In this document: in pieces, positions 4,078 through 36,685 of the stretch | How positions within the stretch are numbered: the first letter of the stretch is position 1 | How the letters are laid out: each line of letters opens with the position of its first letter | NCBI GenBank assembly: GCA_024709105.1 | Contig: JANJXJ010000084.1 | Coordinates: 1 to 42,440 of the forward strand | Reading direction: 5' to 3' | DNA from: Lentimicrobium sp. | GTDB taxonomy: Bacteria > Bacteroidota > Bacteroidia > Bacteroidales > Lentimicrobiaceae | DNA: 42,440 nucleotides | Notes under the pieces: model-generated | Told to the model about the DNA's origin: nothing | Databases searched by the model: none | Seen by the model: the letters and a program-made list of their open reading frames with translations, nothing else | Program-made: the position numbers and the translations under genes

Positions 4078-4106
4078 GAAATTTGCACATTGCCATACAT
4101 AAATAC
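4078..4106 (+). promoter_or_regulatory. Promoter/operator region of the first Rrf2 gene
   Basis: GAAATTTG (4078-4085) resembles the -7 box TAnnTTTG with one mismatch in the first T. Starting 11 bp after its first base is ATTGCCATACATAAATAC (4089-4106). This matches the element before the second Rrf2 gene at 14 of 18 positions, at the identical offset. It ends 4 bp before the ATG, so a bound protein would block transcription start or early elongation. The operator role is inferred from position and repetition only. Confidence 0.5.
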
Positions 4107-4110
4107 CACA

Positions 4111-4512
4111 ATGTCGAGAATCATAACCATTTCCGAAGCTTCTTCCATTGCCATTCACAGCATGGTTTTGATAGCACAGTCTCATGACAGCCTGAATGTC
4201 ATTAAGATAGCTGAGCGCACCGGATCCTCAAAACATCATGTTGCCAAAATTTTGCAACGTTTGGTTAAAGAAGGCTTTCTCAACAGCAACCGTGGCCCTG
4301 CAGGTGGATTTTCGCTCAGAGTGCCCGCTGATCAGGTAAGCTTGCTCGATATTTATGAAACCATCGAAGGCAGACTCAGCGAAACCAGTTGCCCGCTCGA
4401 ACACCAGGTTTGCCCCTTCGACAAGTGCCTTATGGGTGGAATTGTGACAAAAATGACCCGCGAATTCAGAAATTATATGGGTAATGAGAAACTATCTGAT
4501 TATATAAAGTAA
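4111..4512 (+). CDS. Rrf2-family transcriptional regulator, copy 1
   Basis: A 133-residue winged-helix regulator. The recognition region (about 28-60) reads LNVIKIAERTGSSKHHVAKILQRLVKEG and is followed by the conserved wing RGPAGGFSL. Near the C-terminus are Cys94, Cys101 and Cys106 (C-x6-C-x4-C), positioned like the Fe-S ligands of IscR and NsrR, so a redox- or NO-sensitive cluster is likely but not proven. The start at 4111 gives MSRIITISEA, aligned with the second copy. An alternative TTG at 4090 would add 7 residues lying within the putative operator. It is a close paralogue of the next gene, arising from tandem duplication. Family members of this type near hcp often control nitrosative-stress genes; whether this is NsrR in function is an inference. 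Confidence 0.9.
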   Translation: MSRIITISEASSIAIHSMVLIAQSHDSLNVIKIAERTGSSKHHVAKILQRLVKEGFLNSNRGPAGGFSLRVPADQVSLLDIYETIEGRLSETSCPLEHQVCPFDKCLMGGIVTKMTREFRNYMGNEKLSDYIK

Positions 4513-4530
4513 CATTTTCCCACCTTATAC

Positions 4531-4545
4531 TACTGATTTTCAGTA
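4531..4545 (+). repeat. Small hairpin between the two Rrf2 genes
   Basis: TACTGA-TTT-TCAGTA, a perfect 6-bp stem with a 3-nt loop, lies 19 bp after the first rrf2 stop. It is AT-rich and followed by an A-run rather than a T-run on the plus strand, so it is a poor terminator. It may only be an RNA-end stabiliser. Confidence 0.3.
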
Positions 4546-4579
4546 AACTAAAAAATAATTGAAAATTTCTAAAAAAAAA

Positions 4580-4612
4580 TTTGGACGGTATATAAAAATG
4601 TATGTATATTTG
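4580..4612 (+). promoter_or_regulatory. Promoter of the second Rrf2 gene
   Basis: TTTG (4580-4583), a 21-bp spacer and TATATTTG (4605-4612) match the Bacteroidota primary sigma consensus at both boxes. Transcription should begin near 4619, inside the inverted repeat at 4609-4638. Confidence 0.75.
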
Positions 4613-4638
4613 CGTATTCAAATACCTAAATACGCAAA
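4609..4638 (+). promoter_or_regulatory. Perfect 10-10-10 inverted repeat, candidate Rrf2 operator
   Basis: TTTGCGTATT (4609-4618) and AATACGCAAA (4629-4638) are exact reverse complements separated by 10 bp. The left arm overlaps the -7 box and the predicted start site lies inside, the usual geometry for a repressor site. The inner sequence forms part of ATTCAAATACCTAAATAC (4616-4633), which recurs before hcp and before the first rrf2 gene. Autoregulation by the downstream Rrf2 protein is the simplest reading (inference). Confidence 0.6.
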
Positions 4639-4649
4639 CACAAAAACTG

Positions 4650-5048
4650 ATGGCAAAAGTGGTTCACATTTCCGAAGCAGCATCGCTGGCAGTGCACAGC
4701 ATGGCATTGATTGCGGGAAGCCGTGAGATGCTCAATGTCAATCAGATAGCCGATAAAACCAATGCCTCGCGAAACCATTTGGCCAAAGTGATGCAGATTC
4801 TGGTAAAAAACAACTACCTCGATTCGGTTCGCGGGCCCAAGGGTGGTTTCTCCTTAAAAGGTGATCCAACAAAAATTACCCTGCTCGAAATTTACGAACT
4901 GATCGAAGGATCGCTCGAACATCACTATTGTGGCATCGGCGATCAGAAATGTCCGTTCAAAACCTGTGTTTTTGGCGGACTGGCCGATAAATTCTCCCGC
5001 GAATTTGTTAATTATCTCAGAAGTACAACCCTGTCGAACCTTATTTAA
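4650..5048 (+). CDS. Rrf2-family transcriptional regulator, copy 2
   Basis: A 132-residue paralogue of the preceding gene, with the same layout: HTH around LNVNQIADKTNASRNHLAKV, wing RGPKGGFSL, and Cys94, Cys101, Cys106 with identical C-x6-C-x4-C spacing. The start at 4650 (MAKVVHISEA) matches the first copy; an upstream ATG at 4602 lies inside the promoter and is rejected. Unlike the first copy it has a strong promoter with a palindromic candidate operator. Only 9 bp separate its stop from the ferredoxin gene, so the two are co-transcribed. It probably carries an Fe-S cluster and senses NO or redox state (family inference). The conserved cysteines in both copies argue that both remain functional sensors. 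Confidence 0.9.
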   Translation: MAKVVHISEAASLAVHSMALIAGSREMLNVNQIADKTNASRNHLAKVMQILVKNNYLDSVRGPKGGFSLKGDPTKITLLEIYELIEGSLEHHYCGIGDQKCPFKTCVFGGLADKFSREFVNYLRSTTLSNLI

Positions 5049-5057
5049 TACAAACTG

Positions 5058-6002
5058 ATGAAAAGAACTATCATTAAAATTGATGAAGAACTCTGCAATG
5101 GTTGCGGTAATTGTGTACCTAATTGCCACGAGGGAGCGCTTCAAATTATTGACGGCAAAGCCAGGCTCATCAGCGACCTGTTTTGCGACGGACTCGGAGC
5201 CTGCATTGGCCACTGCCCCGAAGGCGCCATCACCATGGAAGAACGTGAAGCCGAACCTTACGATGAAATTAAGGTAATGGAACTGATGGTTACAAAAGGC
5301 CGGAATACCATTCTTGCCCATCTTGAGCATCTGCGCGACCACAATGAAACGGAACTGCTGAAACAAGCCATCAGCTATATAAAAGAAAATAACATTGACA
5401 TGAGCCCCGAGGGCGGTAAACAGCACAACCACCATCACCACAATCACCAGCATAGTTTTGCAGACATTGACGAAGCCAGGGCTGCAGTTTCAGCTAAACA
5501 GGCTGGCTGCGGCGGTGGCTGCCCGGGCTCAAAACCCATTGATTTCAACATTGACCTGAATAAGGTAAACGAAGCTGCCTCAAAAACTGCTCAAGAAACC
5601 ACTTCCACTGCCGATGCTCCTTCCGAACTCAGGCAATGGCCGGTGCAACTGCACCTGCTCAACCCGCAGGCAGGATATTTTAAGAATGCCGATGTAGTGC
5701 TTGCTGCAGATTGTGTGGCTTTTTCGATGGGTAATTTCCACAATCGTTTCCTGAAAGGCAAAACCCTTGCCATTGCCTGCCCCAAACTCGATTCGAACAA
5801 AGAATCCTACATTGAGAAACTCACCGATATGATTGCAAAAAGTAACATCAACACCCTTTCGGTTATTATGATGGAAGTTCCATGCTGCGGCGGTTTATTG
5901 CAAATGGCTCAGATGGCAAGGCAGAAGTCTGGCAAAAACATCCCCCTGAAAAAGGCAATTATTGGGGTGCAGGGCGAAGTTCTGAGTGAAGAATGGGTTT
6001 AA
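5058..6002 (+). CDS. Ferredoxin-like 4Fe-4S protein with His-rich linker
   Basis: A 314-residue cytoplasmic iron-sulfur protein. Residues 13-23 hold a full cluster motif C13-x2-C16-x2-C19-x3-C23. A second motif follows, C43-DGLGA-C49-x3-C53, in which the usual second cysteine is absent, a variant common in this ferredoxin subgroup. Residues 121-133 are a histidine-rich stretch (KQHNHHHHNHQHS), followed by a C151GGGC155 motif. The C-terminal half (~195-314) is a separate domain with C219, ACPK (C241) and VPCCGG (C276, C277). Together these suggest electron transfer plus metal or extra cluster binding. It is translationally close to the second rrf2 gene (9 bp) and precedes the barrel protein by 55 bp. 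It is a plausible electron donor for Hcp encoded two genes downstream (inference). Confidence 0.85.
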   Translation: MKRTIIKIDEELCNGCGNCVPNCHEGALQIIDGKARLISDLFCDGLGACIGHCPEGAITMEEREAEPYDEIKVMELMVTKGRNTILAHLEHLRDHNETELLKQAISYIKENNIDMSPEGGKQHNHHHHNHQHSFADIDEARAAVSAKQAGCGGGCPGSKPIDFNIDLNKVNEAASKTAQETTSTADAPSELRQWPVQLHLLNPQAGYFKNADVVLAADCVAFSMGNFHNRFLKGKTLAIACPKLDSNKESYIEKLTDMIAKSNINTLSVIMMEVPCCGGLLQMAQMARQKSGKNIPLKKAIIGVQGEVLSEEWV

Positions 6003-6057
6003 ACTGATTTATTAAATTCAAAATACTTTTCAAAGCCACACACAAACACAAAAAGTT

Positions 6058-7350
6058 ATGAACACAAAAATCAGGATTGCTTTTCTTGTTTCAATGTTTG
6101 CCATTCCTTTTATGGCATCGGCACAATTCATCATTGGCGGAGAATTAAGGCCCCGAGCCGAATACCGCCACGGGTTCAAATCGCCTGCCACGGCAGATAT
6201 GGATGCAGCTGCTTTTATTTCGCAGCGCAGCAGAATCAACATGGGATTTACCAACGACAAAATGAAGGTGGGTTTTAGTCTGCAGGATGTGAGAGTTTGG
6301 GGCGATGTTGCCCAGCTGAATCTTTCCGACAACAGTTTTTCGGTGCATGAAGCCTGGGGAGAGTACTTTTTCTCACCTTCCTTTTCGGTGAAAGCCGGAC
6401 GTATGGAGCTGGTTTACGATGATGCACGTATGCTTGGAAATGTAGATTGGGCGCAGCAGGGCCGCAGTCACGACATCGGACTCATCAAATACGAAAAAGG
6501 TGTATGGAAATTCCATGCCGGAATGGCTTACAATCAGGACAAAGAACAACTGAGCGGCAGGGTTTACACCGTTACCGGAAATTACAAAACCATGCAACTG
6601 CTCTGGACAAACTATAAAAAGGGCAATCTGAATGCCAGCCTGTTGTTCCTGAACAATGGTATGCAGGACTCCGAAGAAACTGGCGAAGAAGTAAGTTACA
6701 CCACACGATACGGACAGACTTTCGGGGGAACAGCAACTTATCAGCTGAATCCATTTACACTGAACGGTTCAGTTTACAAACAAACCGGAAAAGTTACCGG
6801 AAATAAAAAACTGGATGCTATCAATTTAGCCCTGAATGCAAAATGGGCCATCAATAAGCAGTGGAGTTTAACACCAGGGTTCGAATATCTTTCGGGCACC
6901 AGTCAGGCCGATGCTGCAACACCCGGCTTCAGCGAAAACAACAGCTTCAATCCGCTTTATGGCACCAATCACAAATTCAACGGGTTTATGGATTATTACT
7001 ACGTTGGTAATCACCTGAACAGTGTGGGACTTCAGAACATCTATTTTAAAGCAGGGTACTCAAAAAATAAATTTTCGGCAGGAGCCGACCTGCATTTGTT
7101 CAGTGCTGCAGCCGATATCATCAATCAGGAAAATCCGGCTGAAATCCTTGATAAAAATCTCGGCCAGGAGCTGGACCTCCATATCGCCTACAAACTGGCA
7201 GATGCAGTAATCCTGAACGCCGGTTACTCACAATATTTTGCTACTGAATCAACCGTTGCACTCAAGGGGGGAAGCACTTCAGAAACAAGCAACTGGGCCT
7301 GGGTTTCGGTAACTTTCAAGCCAGAATTCCTTAACACCGGAAAAAAATAA
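6058..7350 (+). CDS. Outer-membrane beta-barrel, alginate-export/porin-like
   Basis: A 430-residue exported protein with a clear Sec signal peptide ([22 protein letters not shown], cleavage before Q). The mature part begins with [17 protein letters not shown] and RSRINMGF, typical first strands of the alginate-export family of barrels, and continues with alternating hydrophobic/aromatic strands separated by polar loops to the end ([14 protein letters not shown]). It should form a channel in the outer membrane. The family name is historical. In anaerobic Bacteroidota such barrels are often seen near nitrite or nitrogen-oxide genes, and passage of a small anion such as nitrite is a guess. Its gene lies between the ferredoxin and hcp. 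A hairpin at 7361-7396 separates it from hcp. Confidence 0.75.
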
Positions 7351-7360
7351 AGCATCATTT

Positions 7361-7396
7361 ATGGCTAAAGAGATTTTCATATCTATATTTAGCCAT
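7361..7396 (+). repeat. 9-bp inverted repeat in the hcp leader
   Basis: ATGGCTAAA (7361-7369) and TTTAGCCAT (7388-7396) are exact reverse complements separated by 18 bp, with a further weak AGAT/ATCT pairing inside. It could end transcription of the barrel gene weakly (no T-run follows) or be a protein site, since its right arm overlaps the hcp -7-like box. Confidence 0.5.
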
Positions 7397-7412
7397 TCAA
7401 GTACCTAATAAT
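7384..7412 (+). promoter_or_regulatory. hcp promoter -7-like box with Rrf2-type motif
   Basis: TATATTTA (7384-7391) is one mismatch from TAnnTTTG. Exactly 11 bp after its first base comes ATTCAAGTACCTAATAAT (7395-7412), which shares its first 14 bases with the rrf2-copy-2 element except for one A/G change. No good -33 box is present, so the promoter may need activation or be weak. Confidence 0.55.
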
Positions 7413-7448: not shown

Positions 7449-9101
7449 ATGAGCATGTTTTGCTATCAATGCCAGGAAGCAGCCAAAGGAACCGGCTGCA
7501 CCATCAAGGGAGTTTGCGGAAAAACTGACGATGTTTCCAATCTGCAGGACTTATTGATGTTTGTAATGAAAGGAATCTCGATTTACAGCCACGAAGCGAG
7601 AGTCAAAGGAATTGAAAATGCCCGGGTCAACAAATTTATTACCGACGGGTTATTCGCCACCATCACCAATGCCAACTTCGACCGTTCGGTGTTTATCCGC
7701 CGCATACACGAAGGGCTGGCATTGCGCAACGAAATAAAAGATATCTGCGAAAAGGCAGGTATTAAGTTTAATGAATCAGAACTTCATGAGTCGGCTGTAT
7801 GGTTTGCAGACAGTGAAGCTGAGTTTGATGCCAAAGCCATAGAGGTAGGTGTACTTGCCACCGAAAATGAAGATGTACGTTCGTTGCGCGAGTTGCTGAC
7901 CTATGGATTAAAAGGTATGGCAGCTTACACAGAACACGCTTACAATCTTGGTTTTGAAGAGCCGGCATTGTATGAATTTATGCAGCGTGGCCTTGTAGCC
8001 ACCACCAAAAACCACACCGCCGGCGAATTGGTTGGCCTGGTGATGGAATGTGGAAAATCCGGAGTAACCGCCATGGCATTGCTCGACAAAGCCAATACCA
8101 GCAATTACGGCAACCCTGAAATTACAAAAGTAAACATCGGCGTAAGCGACAAACCCGGAATCCTTATCAGTGGCCATGACCTGAAGGACATGGAGGAGCT
8201 GCTGAAACAAACCGAGGGCACCGGTGTGGATGTTTACACACACAGCGAGATGCTTCCGGCAAATTATTACCCGGCATTTAAAAAGTACAGTCATTTTGTT
8301 GGCAATTACGGCAGCTCATGGTGGAAACAAAAAGAAGAATTTGAAACCTTCAACGGACCCATTCTCTTTACCACCAACTGTATTGTACCTCCGCCAGCGA
8401 GCGCAACCTACCGCGATAAAGTTTACACCACCGGTGCAGCCGGTTTCAGTGGGTTCAAACACATTGCTGACCGTGCAGAAGGCAGATCAAAAGATTTCAG
8501 CGAAATAATAGCACATGCAAAAAAATGTGCTGCCCCCACTGAAATTGAAAAAGGTGAGATTATCGGTGGATTTGCTCATGCTCAGGTGTTTGCACTTGCC
8601 GACAAGGTGGTTGAAGCAGTAAAAACCGGTGCCATCCGCAAGTTCTTTGTAATGGCCGGATGTGATGGCCGGATGAAAGACCGCAGCTATTACACCGAAT
8701 TTGCAGAAGCACTTCCACAGGACACCGTAATTCTTACCGCCGGCTGTGCAAAATACCGTTACAATAAACTGCCGCTGGGCGATATAGGCGGAATTCCCCG
8801 TGTACTCGATGCCGGACAGTGCAATGACTCCTACTCGCTTGCAGTAATTGCACTTAAGCTGAAGGAAGTATTTGAATTGAACGATATCAATGAACTCTCC
8901 ATAGCTTACAACATCGCCTGGTATGAGCAGAAGGCTGTAATAGTGTTGCTTGCATTGCTTCACCTGGGTGTGAAAAACATACACCTCGGCCCCACCCTGC
9001 CGGCATTTTTATCGCCCCATGTTGCCAAAGTACTGGTAGAAACATTTGGAATTGCACCCATTGGCAGTGTTGACGAAGACATGAAACTCTTTCTGAACTA
9101 A
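7449..9101 (+). CDS. hcp: Hybrid cluster protein (hydroxylamine / NO reductase)
   Basis: A 550-residue class I Hcp, the length typical of strict anaerobes. The N-terminal cysteines C5-x2-C8-x8-C17-x5-C23 match the cubane [4Fe-4S] motif and not the 2Fe-2S form of enterics. All expected ligands of the hybrid [4Fe-2O-2S] cluster are seen: His243, Glu267, Cys311, Cys405 (the persulfide position), Cys433, Cys458 and Glu493. Each lies one residue before the Desulfovibrio vulgaris numbering as I recall it. The enzyme is cytoplasmic and reduces NO to N2O and, in vitro, hydroxylamine to ammonia. This makes it a detoxifying partner for the nitrite reductase NrfHA encoded downstream. No hcr reductase gene is adjacent; the ferredoxin at 5058-6002 may supply electrons (inference). 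Start at the ATG after an A-rich leader. Confidence 0.97.
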
Positions 9102-9202: not shown

Positions 9203-10435
9203 ATGAGCGAACTCATCAATAACTCGGAAAAACGCAAAGCTCAGTTAAAGGAACTGATCTTAAAACTACATCAGGGCGGCCATCAGGAAGACGTAAGAAA
9301 AGAACTGATGAACAGCCTGAGCCAGATTCCTTACGGCGAGGTGGTTGAAGTGGAGCAGGAGCTTATTTCGGAAGGTTTACCCGAAGAAGAAGTTCTCAAA
9401 CTTTGTGATGCCCACTCTGCAGTTTTGCAGGGCAACATTGACCTGAGCGGATCAAAAGCAATACCCGCAGGACATCCGGTTGACGTTTTCAAACGCGAAA
9501 ACGAAGAATTGCTCAAAGTTACCGGTCAGGCCAGAAAATTGATTGCAGAAGCTGCTCATGCAAATCAAAGCGAAATTGAAAGCATCATACTTAAACTCAG
9601 GGCTCTTTTTAATGGCCTGATGGATGCCGACAAACATTATCAGCGCAAAGAATACCTGCTTTTCCCTTATCTGGAAAGCAAAGGCATCACCGGCCCTCCC
9701 AAAGTAATGTGGGGCAAACATGATGAAATCAGGGAACTCATCAAAGGGAGTCTGGAAGTGCTTCAGCAAGCCGGCATTTCATCTGAAGAATTGCAGGCAT
9801 CTGCCGAAATTGTACTTAATCAGGCCTTGTTTGGCATAGACGACATGACAGTAAAAGAAGAGCAGATACTTTTCCCGATGTCGATGGACAAACTTACTGA
9901 AGCTGAATGGTTTGAAATAAGCAAACAATCACTTGAAATCGGCTACTGTCTGTACGACCCGCAAACCAGCTGGAAACCGGAATGGGCAGGAGAAACAGGG
10001 ATAAACGAAGCACAAAAATCAGGCAGCCAGATTCAGTTGCCTTCGGGCAGCTTTTCAGCAGCAGAACTGATGGCCATACTCAATACATTGCCCATTGACA
10101 TGACCTTTGTTGACAAAGACGACAAGGTAAAATACTTTTCGCAGGGTGCAGAGCGCATTTTTCAGCGCAACCGTGCCATACTTAACCGCGATGTAAGGCA
10201 TTGCCATCCACCGGCAAGTGCACACATTGTTGACAAGATTATTGACGATTTCAAAACCGGCCGTGAATCCAGAGCTCCTTTCTGGATAAATATGGGTGGC
10301 AAAATGATTCACATTGAATACTTTGCCCTCAGGGGTGAAAACGGCGAATACCTCGGAACTCTTGAAGTTTCGCATAATGTAACCCCTTATCGCGAATTAC
10401 AGGGCGAACAAAGGATTCTTTCGTATTCAAAATAA
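9203..10435 (+). CDS. DUF438-hemerythrin-PAS protein
   Basis: A 410-residue soluble protein with three parts. Residues ~10-75 form the helical DUF438 domain (KAQLKELILKLHQGG, then EVEQELISEGLPEEEV). Residues ~88-235 form a hemerythrin-like HHE bundle: His91 (GHPVDVF), His145 and Glu150 (DADKHYQRKEYLLFPYLE), His173 (WGKHDEI) and Glu219/220 (KEEQILFPM) are good di-iron ligands. Residues ~285-405 are a PAS domain (IDMTFVDKDDKVKYFSQGAERIF) ending in a PAC-like LEVSHNVTPYRELQG. The family is associated with NO or oxygen handling in anaerobes; di-iron sites of this type bind NO and O2. Next to hcp it may scavenge NO or repair Fe-S centres, with the PAS possibly binding heme or another cofactor (inference). 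It is followed 7 bp later by the DUF2249 gene, so the two are co-transcribed. Confidence 0.9.
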   Translation: MSELINNSEKRKAQLKELILKLHQGGHQEDVRKELMNSLSQIPYGEVVEVEQELISEGLPEEEVLKLCDAHSAVLQGNIDLSGSKAIPAGHPVDVFKRENEELLKVTGQARKLIAEAAHANQSEIESIILKLRALFNGLMDADKHYQRKEYLLFPYLESKGITGPPKVMWGKHDEIRELIKGSLEVLQQAGISSEELQASAEIVLNQALFGIDDMTVKEEQILFPMSMDKLTEAEWFEISKQSLEIGYCLYDPQTSWKPEWAGETGINEAQKSGSQIQLPSGSFSAAELMAILNTLPIDMTFVDKDDKVKYFSQGAERIFQRNRAILNRDVRHCHPPASAHIVDKIIDDFKTGRESRAPFWINMGGKMIHIEYFALRGENGEYLGTLEVSHNVTPYRELQGEQRILSYSK

Positions 10436-10442
10436 AACCGAC

Positions 10443-10961
10443 ATGAACGAACAACTCATTATAACTCCCAAAACCAAAGTTTTGCAGGCCATAGAGGCAT
10501 ATCCTCAGCTGGAAGAATTACTGATCAGCTATGTGCCAGCTTTTGTAAAACTGAAAAATCCAGTGCTGCGCAAAACAGTGGCCCGCATTGCAACTTTGCA
10601 GCAGGCTGCTGCCATTGGCAATGTCCCGGTTGAAGAACTCATCAACAAACTGAGGGCAGAAATTGGTCAGGATTTATTCACACAAAACGAAAACCAAATG
10701 TACAACACCCAACAACCAGAATGGTACAATGAGTCACTGATTGCCGGTGAACTTGATGCCAGGCCTATGCTGGCCGCCGGCGAACATCCCGTAAATCAGG
10801 TAATTGCTGATCTTAAGATACTTGAAACAGGAAAAATCTACAAGCTTACAGCCCCTTTTCTTCCTGCTCCGCTTATAGACAAAGCCAGCAGCCTCAATTT
10901 TAAACACTGGGTAACCAAATCTGATGACGGAACCCACATCATTTATTTCACTGCAATTTAA
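10443..10961 (+). CDS. DUF1858-DUF2249 protein
   Basis: A 172-residue soluble protein. Residues ~5-70 look like DUF1858, a ScdA/hybrid-cluster-associated N-terminal helical domain (TKVLQAIEAYPQLEELLISYVPAFVKLKNPVLRKTVARIATLQQAA). Residues ~98-172 match DUF2249, a small TusA-like alpha/beta fold (LDARPMLAAGEHPVNQVI, then GKIYKLTAPFLPAPLIDKA). DUF2249 and DUF1858 proteins recur beside hemerythrin and DUF438 genes in anaerobic nitrogen-oxide clusters. The biochemical role is not established; repair of NO-damaged iron centres is a common proposal. It is tightly spaced with its neighbours (7 bp before, 11 bp after), forming an operon 9203-11302. Confidence 0.85.
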   Translation: MNEQLIITPKTKVLQAIEAYPQLEELLISYVPAFVKLKNPVLRKTVARIATLQQAAAIGNVPVEELINKLRAEIGQDLFTQNENQMYNTQQPEWYNESLIAGELDARPMLAAGEHPVNQVIADLKILETGKIYKLTAPFLPAPLIDKASSLNFKHWVTKSDDGTHIIYFTAI

Positions 10962-10972
10962 CACTATAAACC

Positions 10973-11302
10973 ATGGAAAACAACAAATTCAATAACAGCT
11001 CAGCATTTTCCTTCAATAGCGAAATCAATTATTCCGAAGGCGGAATAGTGAGTATGCGGGTAATGGAGAAAAGTGCCGGAAATGTGAGCCTTTTTGCATT
11101 CGACAAAGGACAGAAACTGAGCGAACACACTGCTCCCTTTGATGCAATGATACAGGTAACTGAAGGCGAAGCGGAAATAATCATTGGCGGAAATCCGAAT
11201 CATCTGCATGCCGGCGAAACCATAATTATGCCCGCCAATATTCCTCATGCGGTAAATGCCATTGAGAAGTTCAAAATGGTTTTAACCATGATTAAAGCCT
11301 GA
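10973..11302 (+). CDS. Small cupin protein
   Basis: A 109-residue single-domain cupin. The first motif around KLSEHTAPFDAMIQVTEGEAEIII carries the His/Glu pattern, although the usual G(X)5HXH is reduced to one His followed by FDA. The second motif, HLHAGETIIMPANIPHAVNAIEKFKM, keeps the P-x4-H signature. It could bind a metal through fewer ligands than usual. It is the last gene of the DUF438-DUF2249-cupin operon. Cupins of this kind are often seen at the end of hcp/hemerythrin operons in Bacteroidota, but the substrate is unknown. Confidence 0.8.
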   Translation: MENNKFNNSSAFSFNSEINYSEGGIVSMRVMEKSAGNVSLFAFDKGQKLSEHTAPFDAMIQVTEGEAEIIIGGNPNHLHAGETIIMPANIPHAVNAIEKFKMVLTMIKA

Positions 11303-18456: not shown

Positions 18457-18522
18457 TTACCTTAATCGGCATCTTCCAAATTATTTAGACCGATTCTAAT
18501 TTAGGCTTTTCTCTCAAAAATA

Positions 18523-18554
18523 TTTGACAGGAAAGCAAAAAGCACTTATTTTTG
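18523..18554 (+). promoter_or_regulatory. nrfHA promoter
   Basis: TTTG (18523-18526), a 20-bp spacer and TATTTTTG (18547-18554) match the Bacteroidota consensus fully. The start site should be near 18561, inside the dyad described next. Confidence 0.8.
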
Positions 18555-18558
18555 TATT

Positions 18559-18586
18559 AGTAAATACTATTCAGTACTTATTTACT
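18559..18586 (+). promoter_or_regulatory. Dyad at the nrfHA transcription start, candidate operator
   Basis: AGTAAATA (18559-18566) and TATTTACT (18579-18586) are exact reverse complements with a 12-bp centre that itself reads CTATTCAGTACT. The total length of 28 bp and its position just after the -7 box suit a repressor site. It is similar in size to, but different in sequence from, the 30-bp site before the second rrf2 gene, and shares only ATTCA-GTAC-TA with the rrf2/hcp motif. Confidence 0.55.
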
Positions 18587-18604: not shown

Positions 18605-19192
18605 ATGAGAAGACTTTTCAGAATCCTTACCCCTCCGCCCCGGTGGCAACTTCCGGTAATTTTAATGCTGGGAGTAATGACCGGCATTATACTGCTGCTC
18701 ATCAGGGCTTCCAATGCGCACTCTTATTTATCAGACGATCCGGAGACCTGCATCAACTGCCATGTGATGAATTCGCAGTACGCCTCATGGAATCACAGCA
18801 GTCACCGCGAGGTTGCCACCTGCAACGACTGCCATGTGCCGCAGGACAACGTTTTCAGAAAGTATTATTTCAAGGCCATGGATGGCATGCGACATGCTAC
18901 CATATTTACTGCCAGGGCAGAGCCACAGGTTATCAGAATCAAGCAGGCGGGCATTAATGTGGTTCAGGAGAACTGCATACGATGTCATCAGAACCTGGTA
19001 AATATGGTTAGCGTGGTTGAAGTAACCGGCGAGAATCACAAAACCGGGGCTGGCATGCGCTGCTGGGATTGCCACCGCGAAACGCCGCATGGTACGGTTC
19101 GCAGTCTGGCGTCATTCCCACATTCGCTGGTGCCACAGCTTAATTCGGTAACACCCGAATGGATCAATCAGTATTTAAAAGAAAAAAAATAA
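18605..19192 (+). CDS. nrfH: Tetraheme cytochrome c NrfH, menaquinol dehydrogenase
   Basis: A 195-residue membrane-anchored NapC/NirT-type cytochrome. One helix at ~15-35 anchors it, and four CxxCH heme sites follow at Cys49, Cys73, Cys124 and Cys153. Met55, two residues after the first heme site (CINCHVM), fits the unusual axial Met of NrfH. It takes electrons from menaquinol on the periplasmic side of the inner membrane and passes them to NrfA. The start at 18605 gives MRRLFRIL. A longer frame from 18524 would begin within the promoter and add 27 residues with no family match, so it is rejected. It is separated from nrfA by 16 bp and co-transcribed. Confidence 0.96.
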   Translation: MRRLFRILTPPPRWQLPVILMLGVMTGIILLLIRASNAHSYLSDDPETCINCHVMNSQYASWNHSSHREVATCNDCHVPQDNVFRKYYFKAMDGMRHATIFTARAEPQVIRIKQAGINVVQENCIRCHQNLVNMVSVVEVTGENHKTGAGMRCWDCHRETPHGTVRSLASFPHSLVPQLNSVTPEWINQYLKEKK

Positions 19193-19208: not shown

Positions 19209-20678
19209 ATGGAAACAAACACTACATCAAAACGCAAACCCTGGGTAAACTGGCTGTTGTTTGCAGCCACGGTTATTGTGGTTTTTGCATTGGGACTGCT
19301 GGCCTCGTCGGTAATTGAACGCCGCAGCGAAGCCAAACTTTATTTTCAGATGGCAAAGGAAATTCCCGACTGGGAGCCACGCAATGAAGTTTGGGGAGCG
19401 AATTTCCCTCGTCAATTCGAAACCTACACCAGCACACTTGATACAACATTCCAGAGTGCACATGGTGGATCGGCGATGATAGATTATCTTGAAAAATATC
19501 CTGAGCTGGTAGTAATGTGGGCTGGTTATGCCTTTTCGCGCGACTACAATCAGGGCCGCGGCCATTATTATGCAATTAAAGACATCAGGGAAACCTTGCG
19601 CACCGATGTTCCGCAACCCGGCACCTGCTGGACCTGCAAAAGCACCGATGTGCCCCGGCTGATGAACGAAATGGGTGTTGAGAATTATTATAAAACCCCC
19701 TGGGCAGAATTGGGGCATGAGGTTGTAAATAATATCGGATGCCAGGATTGCCACGACCCGAAAACCATGGACCTGAGAATTACCCGTCCGGCTTTGGCCG
19801 AAGCATTTCAGCGTCAGGGCAGGGACATCAGCAAAGCCACCCATCAGGAAATGCGCTCACTGGTATGTGCACAATGCCACGTGGAGTATTATTTCAAAGG
19901 CGATGGCAAATACCTGACTTTCCCCTGGGACAAAGGGTTTACTGCAGAAGACATGGAAGCTTATTTTGATGAAGTTGAGCATGTAGACTGGGTACACAAA
20001 CTTAGCCGCACCCCTATGCTCAAGGCGCAGCATCCCGATTACGAACTTTATATGACAGGAGTTCATGCCGACCGCGGAGTTGCCTGCGCCGATTGCCACA
20101 TGCCCTACAAACGCGACGGAGGTATGAAATTTACTGATCATAAAATTCAATCGCCGTTAGCCAACATTGCAGGATCATGTCAGGTGTGTCATCGCGAAAG
20201 CGAAGCCAAGCTGCTGGCCAATGTTTATGACAGGCAACATAAGGTAGAAGAACTCAGAAGGATTGTTGAAACTACACTAGCCCGCGTACACATTGAAGCC
20301 AAAACCGCCTGGGATAACGGAGCTACCGAGGAAGAAATGGCACCGGTACTTAAACTCATTCGTCACGCACAATGGCGCTGGGATTATGTAGCAGCAGCCA
20401 ATGGCCTTGGATTTCACTCTCCGGCAGAAGCCCTCAGAATTTTGGGCACTTCAATTCAGAAGTCGCAGGAGGCCAGGATTCTAATGACAGAAATTTTCGT
20501 AAAGAAAGGGGTTAAAACCCCTATTGAACTGCCTGACATTTCAACAAAAGAAAAAGCACAGGAATACATTGGCCTTGAAATGCCAGCGCTGATGAAAAAG
20601 AAAAGCGAATTCCTCACTGCAGTTGTTCCTGAATGGATTGCCAAAGCTGCTGAAAGAGAATCAAAAATGAATAAATAA
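19209..20678 (+). CDS. nrfA: Ammonia-forming cytochrome c nitrite reductase NrfA
   Basis: A 489-residue periplasmic pentaheme enzyme reducing nitrite to ammonium with six electrons, and also NO and hydroxylamine. The catalytic heme has the diagnostic lysine ligand: C140-W-T-C143-K144. Four CxxCH sites follow at C178 (CQDCH), C220 (CAQCH), C293 (CADCH) and C324 (CQVCH). The calcium-site region EYYFKGDGKYLTFPWDKG lies just after the third heme site. The N-terminal hydrophobic segment (~14-32, LLFAATVIVVFALGLLAS) is a signal peptide or membrane anchor. With NrfH it forms the respiratory complex. No cytochrome c maturation genes (ccsBA/resBC) follow, unlike many Bacteroidota nrf operons; the next gene is a separate lplA behind a strong terminator. 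Confidence 0.97.
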   Translation: METNTTSKRKPWVNWLLFAATVIVVFALGLLASSVIERRSEAKLYFQMAKEIPDWEPRNEVWGANFPRQFETYTSTLDTTFQSAHGGSAMIDYLEKYPELVVMWAGYAFSRDYNQGRGHYYAIKDIRETLRTDVPQPGTCWTCKSTDVPRLMNEMGVENYYKTPWAELGHEVVNNIGCQDCHDPKTMDLRITRPALAEAFQRQGRDISKATHQEMRSLVCAQCHVEYYFKGDGKYLTFPWDKGFTAEDMEAYFDEVEHVDWVHKLSRTPMLKAQHPDYELYMTGVHADRGVACADCHMPYKRDGGMKFTDHKIQSPLANIAGSCQVCHRESEAKLLANVYDRQHKVEELRRIVETTLARVHIEAKTAWDNGATEEEMAPVLKLIRHAQWRWDYVAAANGLGFHSPAEALRILGTSIQKSQEARILMTEIFVKKGVKTPIELPDISTKEKAQEYIGLEMPALMKKKSEFLTAVVPEWIAKAAERESKMNK

Positions 20679-35050: not shown

Positions 35051-36685
35051 TTATTTGCACTTTCGGGAAATCCCATAATTAGCCAGCACTCTGATTAAAT
35101 CATTTCGGGTTACTGGTTTACTTAACATGTCGCTAAATAAATCCGATATCTTGACTGTATTCTCCTTTTCATCGTTCAGATGGCCGGAAAAAGCCAGGAT
35201 GGGAATAGCTGCATTTTTTTGCCTGATAATTGCTGCTACTTCTGTGCCACTCATATATGGCATATTCAAATCCAGAAAAACTACACTTACATCAGGATTA
35301 TCATAGTACAAATCAAGGGCTTCCTTTCCGTTGGAAGCAAGCAAAATCTTATTACTGAATTGTTTGAGCGCATATTTATAGAAGGTGAGTTCTTCGGGAT
35401 TGTTGTCTGCTATCAGAAAAACCACCTCTCCTGTTTTTTCTTGACCGGACTCAACAGCAGTTGCATCGCCGTGGGCAACTGTAATCTGGTTATCAACATT
35501 CAAGCTGAAACTAAATATTGATCCTTTATCTTTTTCGGTTTCAAGCGAAATTTTGCCCCCCAGCATATTAACCATTTCCGAAGAGATAGAAAGGCCAAGT
35601 CCGCTTCCCTCATATCCACGGGTAGTTGCTGTACTTTCCTGCTCAAAAATATTAAACACTGATTCCGTGTGCTCCTCAGAAATGCCACAACCAGTATCTT
35701 TTACATAGAAATTTACTCTGGAATTCTCAGAATGGTATCCAAACTCGACCTTCCCCTGCCGGGTAAATTTAATAGCATTGTCGAGAAACTGCCCTATTGA
35801 TTTAGACAGAAATTCGGCATCACTGGATATCACCATGTTTTCCTGCCCTGCCGGCAGAATCATCAGTAATTCAAGCCCTTTTGCATCAGCTTTGTCTTTA
35901 TAGGAATTATAAAGTTTCTCAAATATACTTTTGAGTGCAACCGACTGGTTTACAGGATATTTATTACCACTAACAATCATAGAAATATCCATATAATCGG
36001 TCACGGTTTTTATCAGCCTGTCGGCTGAAGCATTAAGCATGGGAAGCAACTCTTCTTTTTCCTGATTGGAAGTGTCGGGATCAGTGAGAATGGAGGCAAA
36101 GCCGATGATTCCATTCAAAGGGGTTCTTATTTCATGAGAAATGTTCTGCAAAAATGCAGTTTTTAACCGGTCGGCAGCCTCTGCTTTATCACGGGCAATA
36201 ATCAGTTCCTTATTTTTTTCGACCAGCTCAGCTGTTCGGTCAGCTACTTTTTTCTCAAGCATATGGTTGTGTTCTTCCATTCCCGACATCAGAAAAACAG
36301 TAAACAGCAGATTTTTAATTCTAAGCCCTACTTCTATCAGATCAAAAGGTTTGGTAAGAAAATCGGAAGCTCCGGCTGTTAATGCCTTTTGCCTGGTTTG
36401 CGGATTGGCATCGGCTGTAAGCACAACAACTGGCATAAATGATTGAGCAACCCGGCCTGTTTTAATTTGTTCCATAATTTCAAACCCCGAAACATGCGGC
36501 ATCATCAGGTCGAGCAGCAAAATATCGGGCTTCCAGTTTTCGATAACAGAAACTGCCTGCCGGGAATCAGACACCGTATTCAGGTTGATATATCCCTGAA
36601 TGGTTAAAAATGATTCCAGAATTTCGATATTCGAATTCTGATCATCAACAATCAATATTCTGGCATCTTTCAGATCGGGTTTCAT
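35051..36685 (-). CDS. REC-histidine kinase-REC hybrid
   Basis: A 544-residue soluble hybrid kinase. The first receiver (~8-125) has the acidic pair in LIVDDQ, Asp59 in LLLDLMMPHVSG, and the TKPFDL lysine. A coiled coil (~135-172) leads to HisKA with His184 in NISHEIRTPL and a HATPase with FLDNAIKF, DTGCGIS and GSGLGLSI. The second receiver (~420-540) begins FLIADNNPEE, so one residue of the usual acidic pair is Asn428; Asp472 (VVFLDLNMP) and the SKPV lysine are present. Magnesium binding and phosphorylation of this domain may be weaker. It lies 24 bp after the large hybrid kinase and is the second gene of a leftward operon. Confidence 0.92.
   Translation of the reverse strand: MKPDLKDARILIVDDQNSNIEILESFLTIQGYINLNTVSDSRQAVSVIENWKPDILLLDLMMPHVSGFEIMEQIKTGRVAQSFMPVVVLTADANPQTRQKALTAGASDFLTKPFDLIEVGLRIKNLLFTVFLMSGMEEHNHMLEKKVADRTAELVEKNKELIIARDKAEAADRLKTAFLQNISHEIRTPLNGIIGFASILTDPDTSNQEKEELLPMLNASADRLIKTVTDYMDISMIVSGNKYPVNQSVALKSIFEKLYNSYKDKADAKGLELLMILPAGQENMVISSDAEFLSKSIGQFLDNAIKFTRQGKVEFGYHSENSRVNFYVKDTGCGISEEHTESVFNIFEQESTATTRGYEGSGLGLSISSEMVNMLGGKISLETEKDKGSIFSFSLNVDNQITVAHGDATAVESGQEKTGEVVFLIADNNPEELTFYKYALKQFSNKILLASNGKEALDLYYDNPDVSVVFLDLNMPYMSGTEVAAIIRQKNAAIPILAFSGHLNDEKENTVKISDLFSDMLSKPVTRNDLIRVLANYGISRKCK

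Follow-up and report, generated by a model that had tools for sequence, protein, structure and literature searches.

We analysed a 42,440-nucleotide stretch of a Lentimicrobium sp. genome from the order Bacteroidales (contig JANJXJ010000084.1 of assembly GCA_024709105.1; hereafter the window), in which two genes for Rrf2-family regulators, rrf2A (4111–4512) and rrf2B (4650–5048), and hcp, the gene for hybrid cluster protein (7449–9101), share a repeated motif beside their −7 promoter boxes, all on the plus strand. Judged from comparative sequence data, the motif is part of a genuine operator-like element, which is strongly conserved and goes with an NsrR-like Rrf2 clade. We consider it likely to be the operator of a group of NsrR-like Rrf2 repressors of Bacteroidales that repress their own genes. 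A preliminary description of this DNA had proposed an Rrf2 operator for a local nitrosative-stress regulon. The enrichment of the element, the set of genes behind it and its tracking of an Rrf2 protein across genomes sustain that proposal, which fails for a supposed copy at an outer-membrane barrel gene and is weakened by the near lack of conservation of the hcp copy.

A direct reading of the DNA confirms the letters and coordinates first given for the three motifs, which begin at 4089, 4616 and 7395, in each case 11 bases after the first base of the box, with the second identical to the first, and likewise to the third, at 14 of 18 positions. The conserved element starts two bases before the motif as first noted, occupying 4087–4106 upstream of rrf2A (ACATTGCCATACATAAATAC), 4614–4633 upstream of rrf2B (GTATTCAAATACCTAAATAC) and 7393–7412 upstream of hcp (CCATTCAAGTACCTAATAAT). 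The rrf2B box, TATATTTG (4605–4612), matches the Bacteroidetes sigma-A −7 consensus TAnnTTTG exactly by direct reading, alignment and logo; its putative operator comprises a palindromic core (4614–4625) and a third half-site (4629–4633), with transcription predicted to start at about 4617. The rrf2A box, GAAATTTG (4078–4085), whose leading G is shared by the rrf2A promoters of congeners, and the −7-like box of hcp, TATATTTA (7384–7391), each deviate from the consensus by one base. Both are followed by degenerate copies of the candidate operator, the rrf2A start being predicted near 4090.

When the window was scanned with a matrix of 21 hand-picked boxes related to that of rrf2B, which is circular for rrf2B because its own box is in the matrix, the three sites ranked first with 44.9, 18.6 and 15.9 bits; the best of 20 Markov-shuffled windows gave 14.5 bits. 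Scored without their boxes, the hcp and rrf2A cores (11.1 and 9.9 bits) are unexceptional. Unrelated places at 35261 (16.6 bits) and 36619 on the minus strand (13.6 bits) outscore them, and shuffled windows contain 1.2 box-less core matches of at least 11 bits per window. The weight of these two copies therefore derives from their fixed register. At that register, a matrix built from 30 sites outside the genus gives 30.8 bits for rrf2B (p ≤ 1e-6), 9.8 for hcp (p = 2.5e-5) and 7.0 for rrf2A (p = 6.8e-5), which, together with the window ranking, upholds the claim that the constant spacing is beyond chance. The weaker relative reported near 6016, before the barrel gene, has the letters described and no −7 box. 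As no register starting between 6001 and 6038 scored above −5.0 with the out-of-genus matrix, an operator for the barrel gene was rejected.

The rrf2B copy is a near-perfect instance of a 29-bp element, TAnATTTGCGYATTCAAATACYKAAWTAC, which joins the −7 box, the palindromic core and the third half-site. Fifteen of its 29 columns are invariant in an alignment of 21 rrf2B boxes, which were chosen by hand to the exclusion of boxes without the exact layout (L036, L040 and L049 among them). An unchosen test used 80 Rrf2 loci collected solely through their proteins; since 13 of them (L229–L241) come from or near the genus, the cases are not all independent. A match was scored where a TTTG box and a core agreeing at 9 or more of its 10 bases lie in the 120 nt upstream. 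By this definition, the element precedes 45 of the 80 rrf2 genes, compared with 2 of 4000 Markov shuffles of the same regions. It precedes only 4 of 404 other open reading frames (ORFs; ≥200 aa) in those loci, and all four are the ferredoxin gene after rrf2. The logo was drawn from the 43 of these 45 sites that keep the standard spacing and lie no more than 60 nt from the start codon; L271, which is far upstream, and L308, which has a different spacing, were dropped. It spells the 29 letters given above, and its information drops on either side, conservation reaching to about +17. Five of the six core pairs are dyad-symmetric in 27 of the 43 sites and four of six in the other 16. Of the spans tested, a 12-bp inner dyad has the highest symmetry, and a 20-bp outer dyad has the same left arm; the protein may read either. 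Enrichment upstream of rrf2 and hcp orthologues in relatives, whose absence the preliminary description had named beforehand as telling against its proposal, was thus found, the element heading rrf2 operons, ferredoxin–hcp operons and one napA gene.

Across 393 genomes of the order, the pattern TANNTTTGNGYATTNNAATAC occurs at 62 places in 59 genomes, and its reversed control at 7 places. Taking an Rrf2B homologue at E ≤ 1e-15 as evidence of Rrf2, 150 of the 393 genomes have one. The pattern occurs in 54 of these 150 versus 5 of the 243 genomes without (Fisher p = 2e-20, relatedness uncorrected), and the seven control genomes split four with and three without. In the five Rrf2-less pattern genomes, the gene immediately behind the site is never rrf2, ferredoxin, hcp or napA; one such genome (G181) has a ferredoxin homologue 1.7 kb downstream of its site. 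In two genomes (G156 and G080), the site is on a different contig from the only Rrf2 listed. A stricter pattern was found in 7 of 395 genomes of the class, two of which (G000 and G181) belong to the order. Among the matches outside the order, that of G542 (L227) heads an rrf2–ferredoxin run, and L222, L226 and L228 do not.

Sixty-one of the 62 places were classified by the gene behind them: 37 precede rrf2, 7 ferredoxin and 1 napA. The other 16 stand before no such gene and include the opposite strand of the napA site; the one place left unclassified, in G065, precedes rrf2. Gene runs headed by a target contain ferredoxin at least 41 times, rrf2 at least 37, cupin at least 23, hcp at least 20, ygbA at least 9, hemerythrin and barrel genes at least 7 each, nrfA and DUF1858 at least 4 each, nrfH and norB at least 3 each and napA at least once, all lower bounds because many fetched stretches end early. 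Pfam and NCBIfam searches on examples identified a NorB-type nitric oxide (NO) reductase (L179, L185), NapA (L170), NrfH and NrfA (L155) and YgbA_NO (L179). Genes expected of an NO-detoxification regulon, namely hcp, qNor, ygbA, nrfA and napA, hence stand behind the site in relatives. In the window, the candidate members are the rrf2B operon, rrf2A and hcp; the place of nrfH among them is doubtful. An operator-like site was also seen before a DsrO/NrfD-like gene pair (L168:2185–2220).

This distribution bears on a rival explanation, in which a sigma factor would read the element as an extended core promoter made up of a special −7 box, a discriminator and the first transcribed bases. Its contiguity with the −7 box and its conserved spacing would suit such a role. 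We nevertheless regard the explanation as very unlikely, as the element is largely limited to one gene set and to Rrf2-bearing genomes (54 of 59), is absent from all of the 404 other ORFs save the four ferredoxin genes, and has a dyad-symmetric core with conservation well past the box, to about +17.

Rrf2A and Rrf2B are both members of the Rrf2 family, scoring 92 and 93.8 bits with PF02082 (cut-off 30; E = 4.6e-26 for Rrf2A) and 85.1 and 89.3 bits with TIGR00738 (cut-off 73.3). Both fall below the cut-offs of the NsrR equivalog NF008240 (34.5 and 34.4 bits; cut-off 182) and the IscR equivalog TIGR02010 (46.1 and 49.9 bits; cut-off 207.55), and neither contains the cNMP_binding or HTH_Crp domain by which HcpR is recognized. 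The AlphaFold model of Rrf2B adopts the winged helix-turn-helix Rrf2 fold, with a predicted local distance difference test score of 84.5 and low confidence around the Cys loop. It matches 37 Protein Data Bank (PDB) chains at E ≤ 0.001, with titles naming RsrR, CymR, IscR, NsrR, a B. cereus Rrf2 protein and putative DNA-binding or transcriptional regulators. Glu9, His16, Cys94, Cys101 and Cys106 do not vary in either of two alignments, of 15 and 30 sequences, and 85 of 88 sequences have Glu at residue 9. Both window proteins thus appear to possess the residues expected of an iron–sulfur sensor.

In a tree of 88 Rrf2 proteins, which has few columns and is biased because many sequences were fetched by motif, 49 rows including the window's rrf2B form a supported clade (clade B; 100/97), with rrf2A outside it (called clade A). 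When the 80 protein-found loci were assigned to clades by best BLAST hit, an own promoter with the operator within 60 nt was found for 43 of 46 clade-B genes versus 1 of 34 clade-A genes, 15 of which closely follow another gene. The ferredoxin start was found in six clade-A loci, and five of these ferredoxin promoters have the box with a related core. In four of them (L267, L283, L293 and L308), the −7 box is followed by GTATTTAATTAC, the counterpart of GYATTCAAATAC in clade B. Both clades therefore seem, on these few sites, to share one kind of operator with a different centre.

On these grounds, we propose that an Rrf2 dimer, presumably holding a [4Fe-4S] cluster by three Cys and perhaps the N-terminal Glu9, would bind GYATTNNAATAC together with the third AWTAC half-site over the transcription start, from about −3 to +17. 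This placement is drawn by analogy from Flavobacterium psychrophilum, in which the TAnnTTTG box lies at −12 to −5 (PMC9723704). A site lying on the start suits a repressor, so the bound dimer would block RNA polymerase rather than activate it. NO, which we infer as the signal because of the gene set, or another nitrosative signal would damage the cluster, the protein would release the DNA, and rrf2B–ferredoxin–barrel(–hcp) would be expressed. The rrf2A and hcp genes would carry weaker operator copies on their own promoters. Part of the element should itself be transcribed, and could in principle act as RNA in the 5′ leader. This seems extremely improbable, since the predicted start falls inside the core, which would leave roughly one half of the dyad in the transcript.

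Conservation within the genus differs among the three copies. The rrf2B promoter carries TATATTTGCGTATTCAAATACCGAAATAC or a near copy in 15 genomes of the genus (our own included; rrf2B loci fetched), and also in several families of the order, in both cases with differing flanks. The rrf2A site reaches p ≤ 1.4e-4 at the fixed register in 6 of 12 genus promoters (G000, G012, G013, G005, G001 and G017) and is strong, at 20.6 bits, in G001, G005 and G013. The L028 site scores well one base off register, and the remaining promoters are poor or lack the site; in L026, no core follows the near box by eye. For the hcp copy, nothing comparable was found in 8 of 9 close congeners (82–87% protein identity; p over 120 nt ≥ 0.36), and the ninth, G002 (L053), has a weak match (p over 120 nt = 0.006) at nearly the same distance to hcp. 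The separate hcp of G074 has a clear site (L073; 17.3 bits, p = 5e-5). Two more distant congeners (L074 and L077) have clade-A-like sites, GTATTTACCTACTTTAATAC and GTATTTAGTTACTTTATTAC, about 100 nt upstream of hcp (p about 0.002 each) with no obvious −7 box.

It is accordingly conceivable, although we are inclined to doubt it, that only the rrf2B site is real, that the rrf2A and hcp copies in the window are decayed or due to chance, and that hcp is read through from the rrf2B promoter. The poor conservation of the hcp copy speaks for this possibility, as do the absence from both copies of bases invariant in the 43 aligned sites and the ordinary scores of their cores taken alone. It is harder to reconcile with p ≤ 7e-5 for both copies at the fixed register under an out-of-genus matrix, or with the strong rrf2A sites of three congeners and the separate hcp site of G074. 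We read hcp as probably served mainly by the rrf2B promoter, plus an extra, changeable site of its own.

Searches of the whole genome added no targets. With a narrow profile (R1), and scoring 150 of 5503 first-look candidates, the rrf2B site was recovered at E = 6.7e-9, followed at 0.005 by a partial match. A 13-base pattern allowing one mismatch was not enriched in this genome (19 places versus 28 for the control), both of its exact matches lying inside the window, and a longer pattern was mildly enriched (34 versus 20). From these searches, we therefore claim no further targets in our own genome. One candidate, before a cation-transporting P-type ATPase gene upstream of a cbb3-type oxidase gene (G000 C162:28412), was rejected because it was unseen in nine congeners with a homologue.

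Several findings weigh against the operator hypothesis as a whole. Ninety-six of the 150 Rrf2-bearing genomes have no exact match to the pattern; the sequences are related, so that counts and p-values overstate independence; and, with rrf2 usually standing first after the site, part of the co-occurrence is to be expected in any case. At the protein level, Glu at residue 9 is missing from 3 of 88 sequences and the SEA-x5-H pattern from 6 of 88, and 86 of 88 have Cys spaced 6/4, compared with 5/5 in ScNsrR. Within the genus, about half of the 12 genomes compared (our own included) have a poor rrf2A site or none, and the hcp copy is hardly conserved. Among the 150 candidates scored, the profile search confidently reported the rrf2B site only, neither the rrf2A nor the hcp copy.

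The regulator known to control hcp in better-known relatives offers a further comparison. Of 17 hcp loci in Rrf2-less genomes (L309–L325), eight have a Crp/Fnr-type gene beside (ferredoxin-)hcp or, in the case of L321, one gene away, and eight regulators near hcp in such genomes have cNMP_binding and HTH_Crp domains. Using E ≤ 1e-15 to define HcpR-like proteins, which also catches other Crp/Fnr members, 99 relatives divide into 3 with both HcpR-like and Rrf2 proteins, 43 with Rrf2 only, 25 with HcpR only and 28 with neither (p = 5e-6). Outside the genus, the corresponding counts are 3, 27, 25 and 25 (p = 2e-4), relatedness being uncorrected in both comparisons. Another regulator, for example a Crp/Fnr protein, might bind the site, leaving the Rrf2 genes as mere targets: HcpR controls hcp in Bacteroides and Porphyromonas (PMC1274295, PMC13370916), and G066, which carries the napA site, encodes an HcpR-like protein as well as an Rrf2. 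This seems very unlikely to us, as no HcpR-like protein was found at that threshold in this genome or its 18 congeners, the two regulators avoid each other (both in 3 of 99), and HcpR sites in the published excerpts (GTAACnnnnGTTAC and others) differ from the element.

Taken together with the Rrf2 repressor hypothesis, this avoidance permits a broader interpretation, which we advance tentatively and at somewhat less than even confidence. HcpR and Rrf2 could be interchangeable master switches of one NO-defence operon, and the duplicated Rrf2 pair, from a previously undescribed clade with an operator fused to the promoter start, could have begun to split its operators within a small two-repressor circuit. 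The split forms would be GYATTCAAATAC for clade B, GTATTTAATTAC for clade A and a third, YYATTYARGTAC, before nrfH; the cores contrasted under this interpretation are GTATTCAAATAC and GTATTTAATTAC. If true, a two-repressor circuit would be visible at different stages in living lineages, and a swap of repressor for activator would be seen at one conserved operon. A paralogue pair with slightly different operators would also be a natural case of diverging regulator specificity.

The window's NrfA (19209–20678) is 63% identical to that of L155 and is preceded by an nrfH-like gene with a likely start at 18605, identified by position, similarity in congeners and haem motifs. Upstream of it, on the plus strand, lies an operator-like element, ACTATTCAGTACTTATTTAC (18566–18585), its start offset by 19 bases from that of a TATTTTTG box at 18547; no standard operator was found at the fixed register there, and we treat nrfH as a doubtful member. 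A GTAC-centred element of consensus YYATTYARGTACYKNATTAC, operator-like except for G0 and A8 and lying farther downstream of the −7 box, recurs in 12 of 14 congener nrfH upstream regions (our own included; L342–L356), being absent from L353 and L354. The elements are individually weak, with best p over 130 nt from 0.002 to 0.8 (0.025 in our own genome), and their AAGTAC form also occurs in the window's hcp copy. In G011, TATATTTGCATTCAAATAC stands directly before nrfH (L345). Farther upstream of nrfH, at 18481–18505, a stretch like TTATTTAnAnnnATTCTAATTTA recurs in L343, L344, L346, L347, L350 and L352; it may be bound by a different regulator or belong to an upstream promoter.

At five congener loci (L360, L361, L362, L364 and L365), a third, distant Rrf2 gene adjoins a norB-like NO reductase gene. 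The −7 box of this Rrf2 gene is preceded by a large inverted repeat of about TTTAATCGGATA...TGTCCGATTAAA, and the pair may be a separate Rrf2–NorB switch. As its upstream region shows this other repeat, the third Rrf2 gene was rejected as a bearer of the operator; G000 has no match to the congeners' norB at E ≤ 1e-30.

The other genes of the locus, all on the plus strand, were assigned by domain search. A 4Fe-4S ferredoxin-domain protein (5058–6002), the usual partner of rrf2 and hcp in the gene runs of relatives, is followed by the barrel gene (Alginate_exp; 6058–7350), with no supported operator upstream by matrix scoring, and by hcp itself (NF003658, 845 bits; cut-off 367). Genes for a DUF438–hemerythrin–PAS protein (9203–10435) and a DUF1858 protein (10443–10961), both found behind the operator in relatives, are probable further operon members, and a cupin gene (10973–11302) is a frequent partner there. 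A His-rich linker (HNHHHHNHQH; 5424–5453) in the ferredoxin-domain protein could bind metal.

Among known systems, NsrR is the nearest, with another operator. The two have in common the Rrf2 fold, three Cys with an acidic N-terminal residue, an autoregulatory layout and overlapping targets (hcp and NO-related genes); ygbA is an NsrR target. The half-site GYAT also occurs in the NsrR operator, gATGyAT-N5-ATrCATc (PMC1274295), although by eye this consensus is unmatched by the 43-site logo, GYATTCAAATAC...AAWTAC. The candidate operator GYATTNNAATAC instead has a 4-base centre between GYAT and ATAC, an extra half-site and a position on the start. In ScNsrR, Cys93, Cys99 and Cys105 together with Asp8 of the partner subunit bind a [4Fe-4S] cluster that NO breaks down (PMC5411485), whereas the clade described here has the 6/4 Cys spacing, with Glu9 as the candidate fourth ligand. 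Because equivalog score and operator consensus both failed, we file these proteins as an Rrf2 family variant, though NsrR-like in their proposed working. RsrR, IscR and CymR, the best PDB fold matches of the Rrf2B model, have targets and operators different from those of the element. In metagenomic scaffolds, Rrf2 genes next to clade II nosZ likewise tie Rrf2 to nitrogen-oxide genes in environmental settings, with no operator described in the excerpts of that paper (PMC6264515), and excerpts of the open-licence literature on Rrf2 and NsrR in Bacteroidetes gave no description of the operator or of the Rrf2 clade. HcpR, the known hcp regulator of Bacteroides and Porphyromonas, resembles the present system in that, elsewhere in the order, HcpR-like genes adjoin the same (ferredoxin-)hcp genes, but it is a haem-binding activator of the unrelated Crp/Fnr family with other sites (PMC1274295, PMC13370916, PMC12750200). 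What is known of nitrosative-stress control in the order comes from HcpR of gut and oral species; the element very probably does in these Bacteroidales the job that this unrelated regulator does in their better-known relatives and, if this is right, the candidate operators supply a precise predicted operator and regulon for many environmental Bacteroidales.

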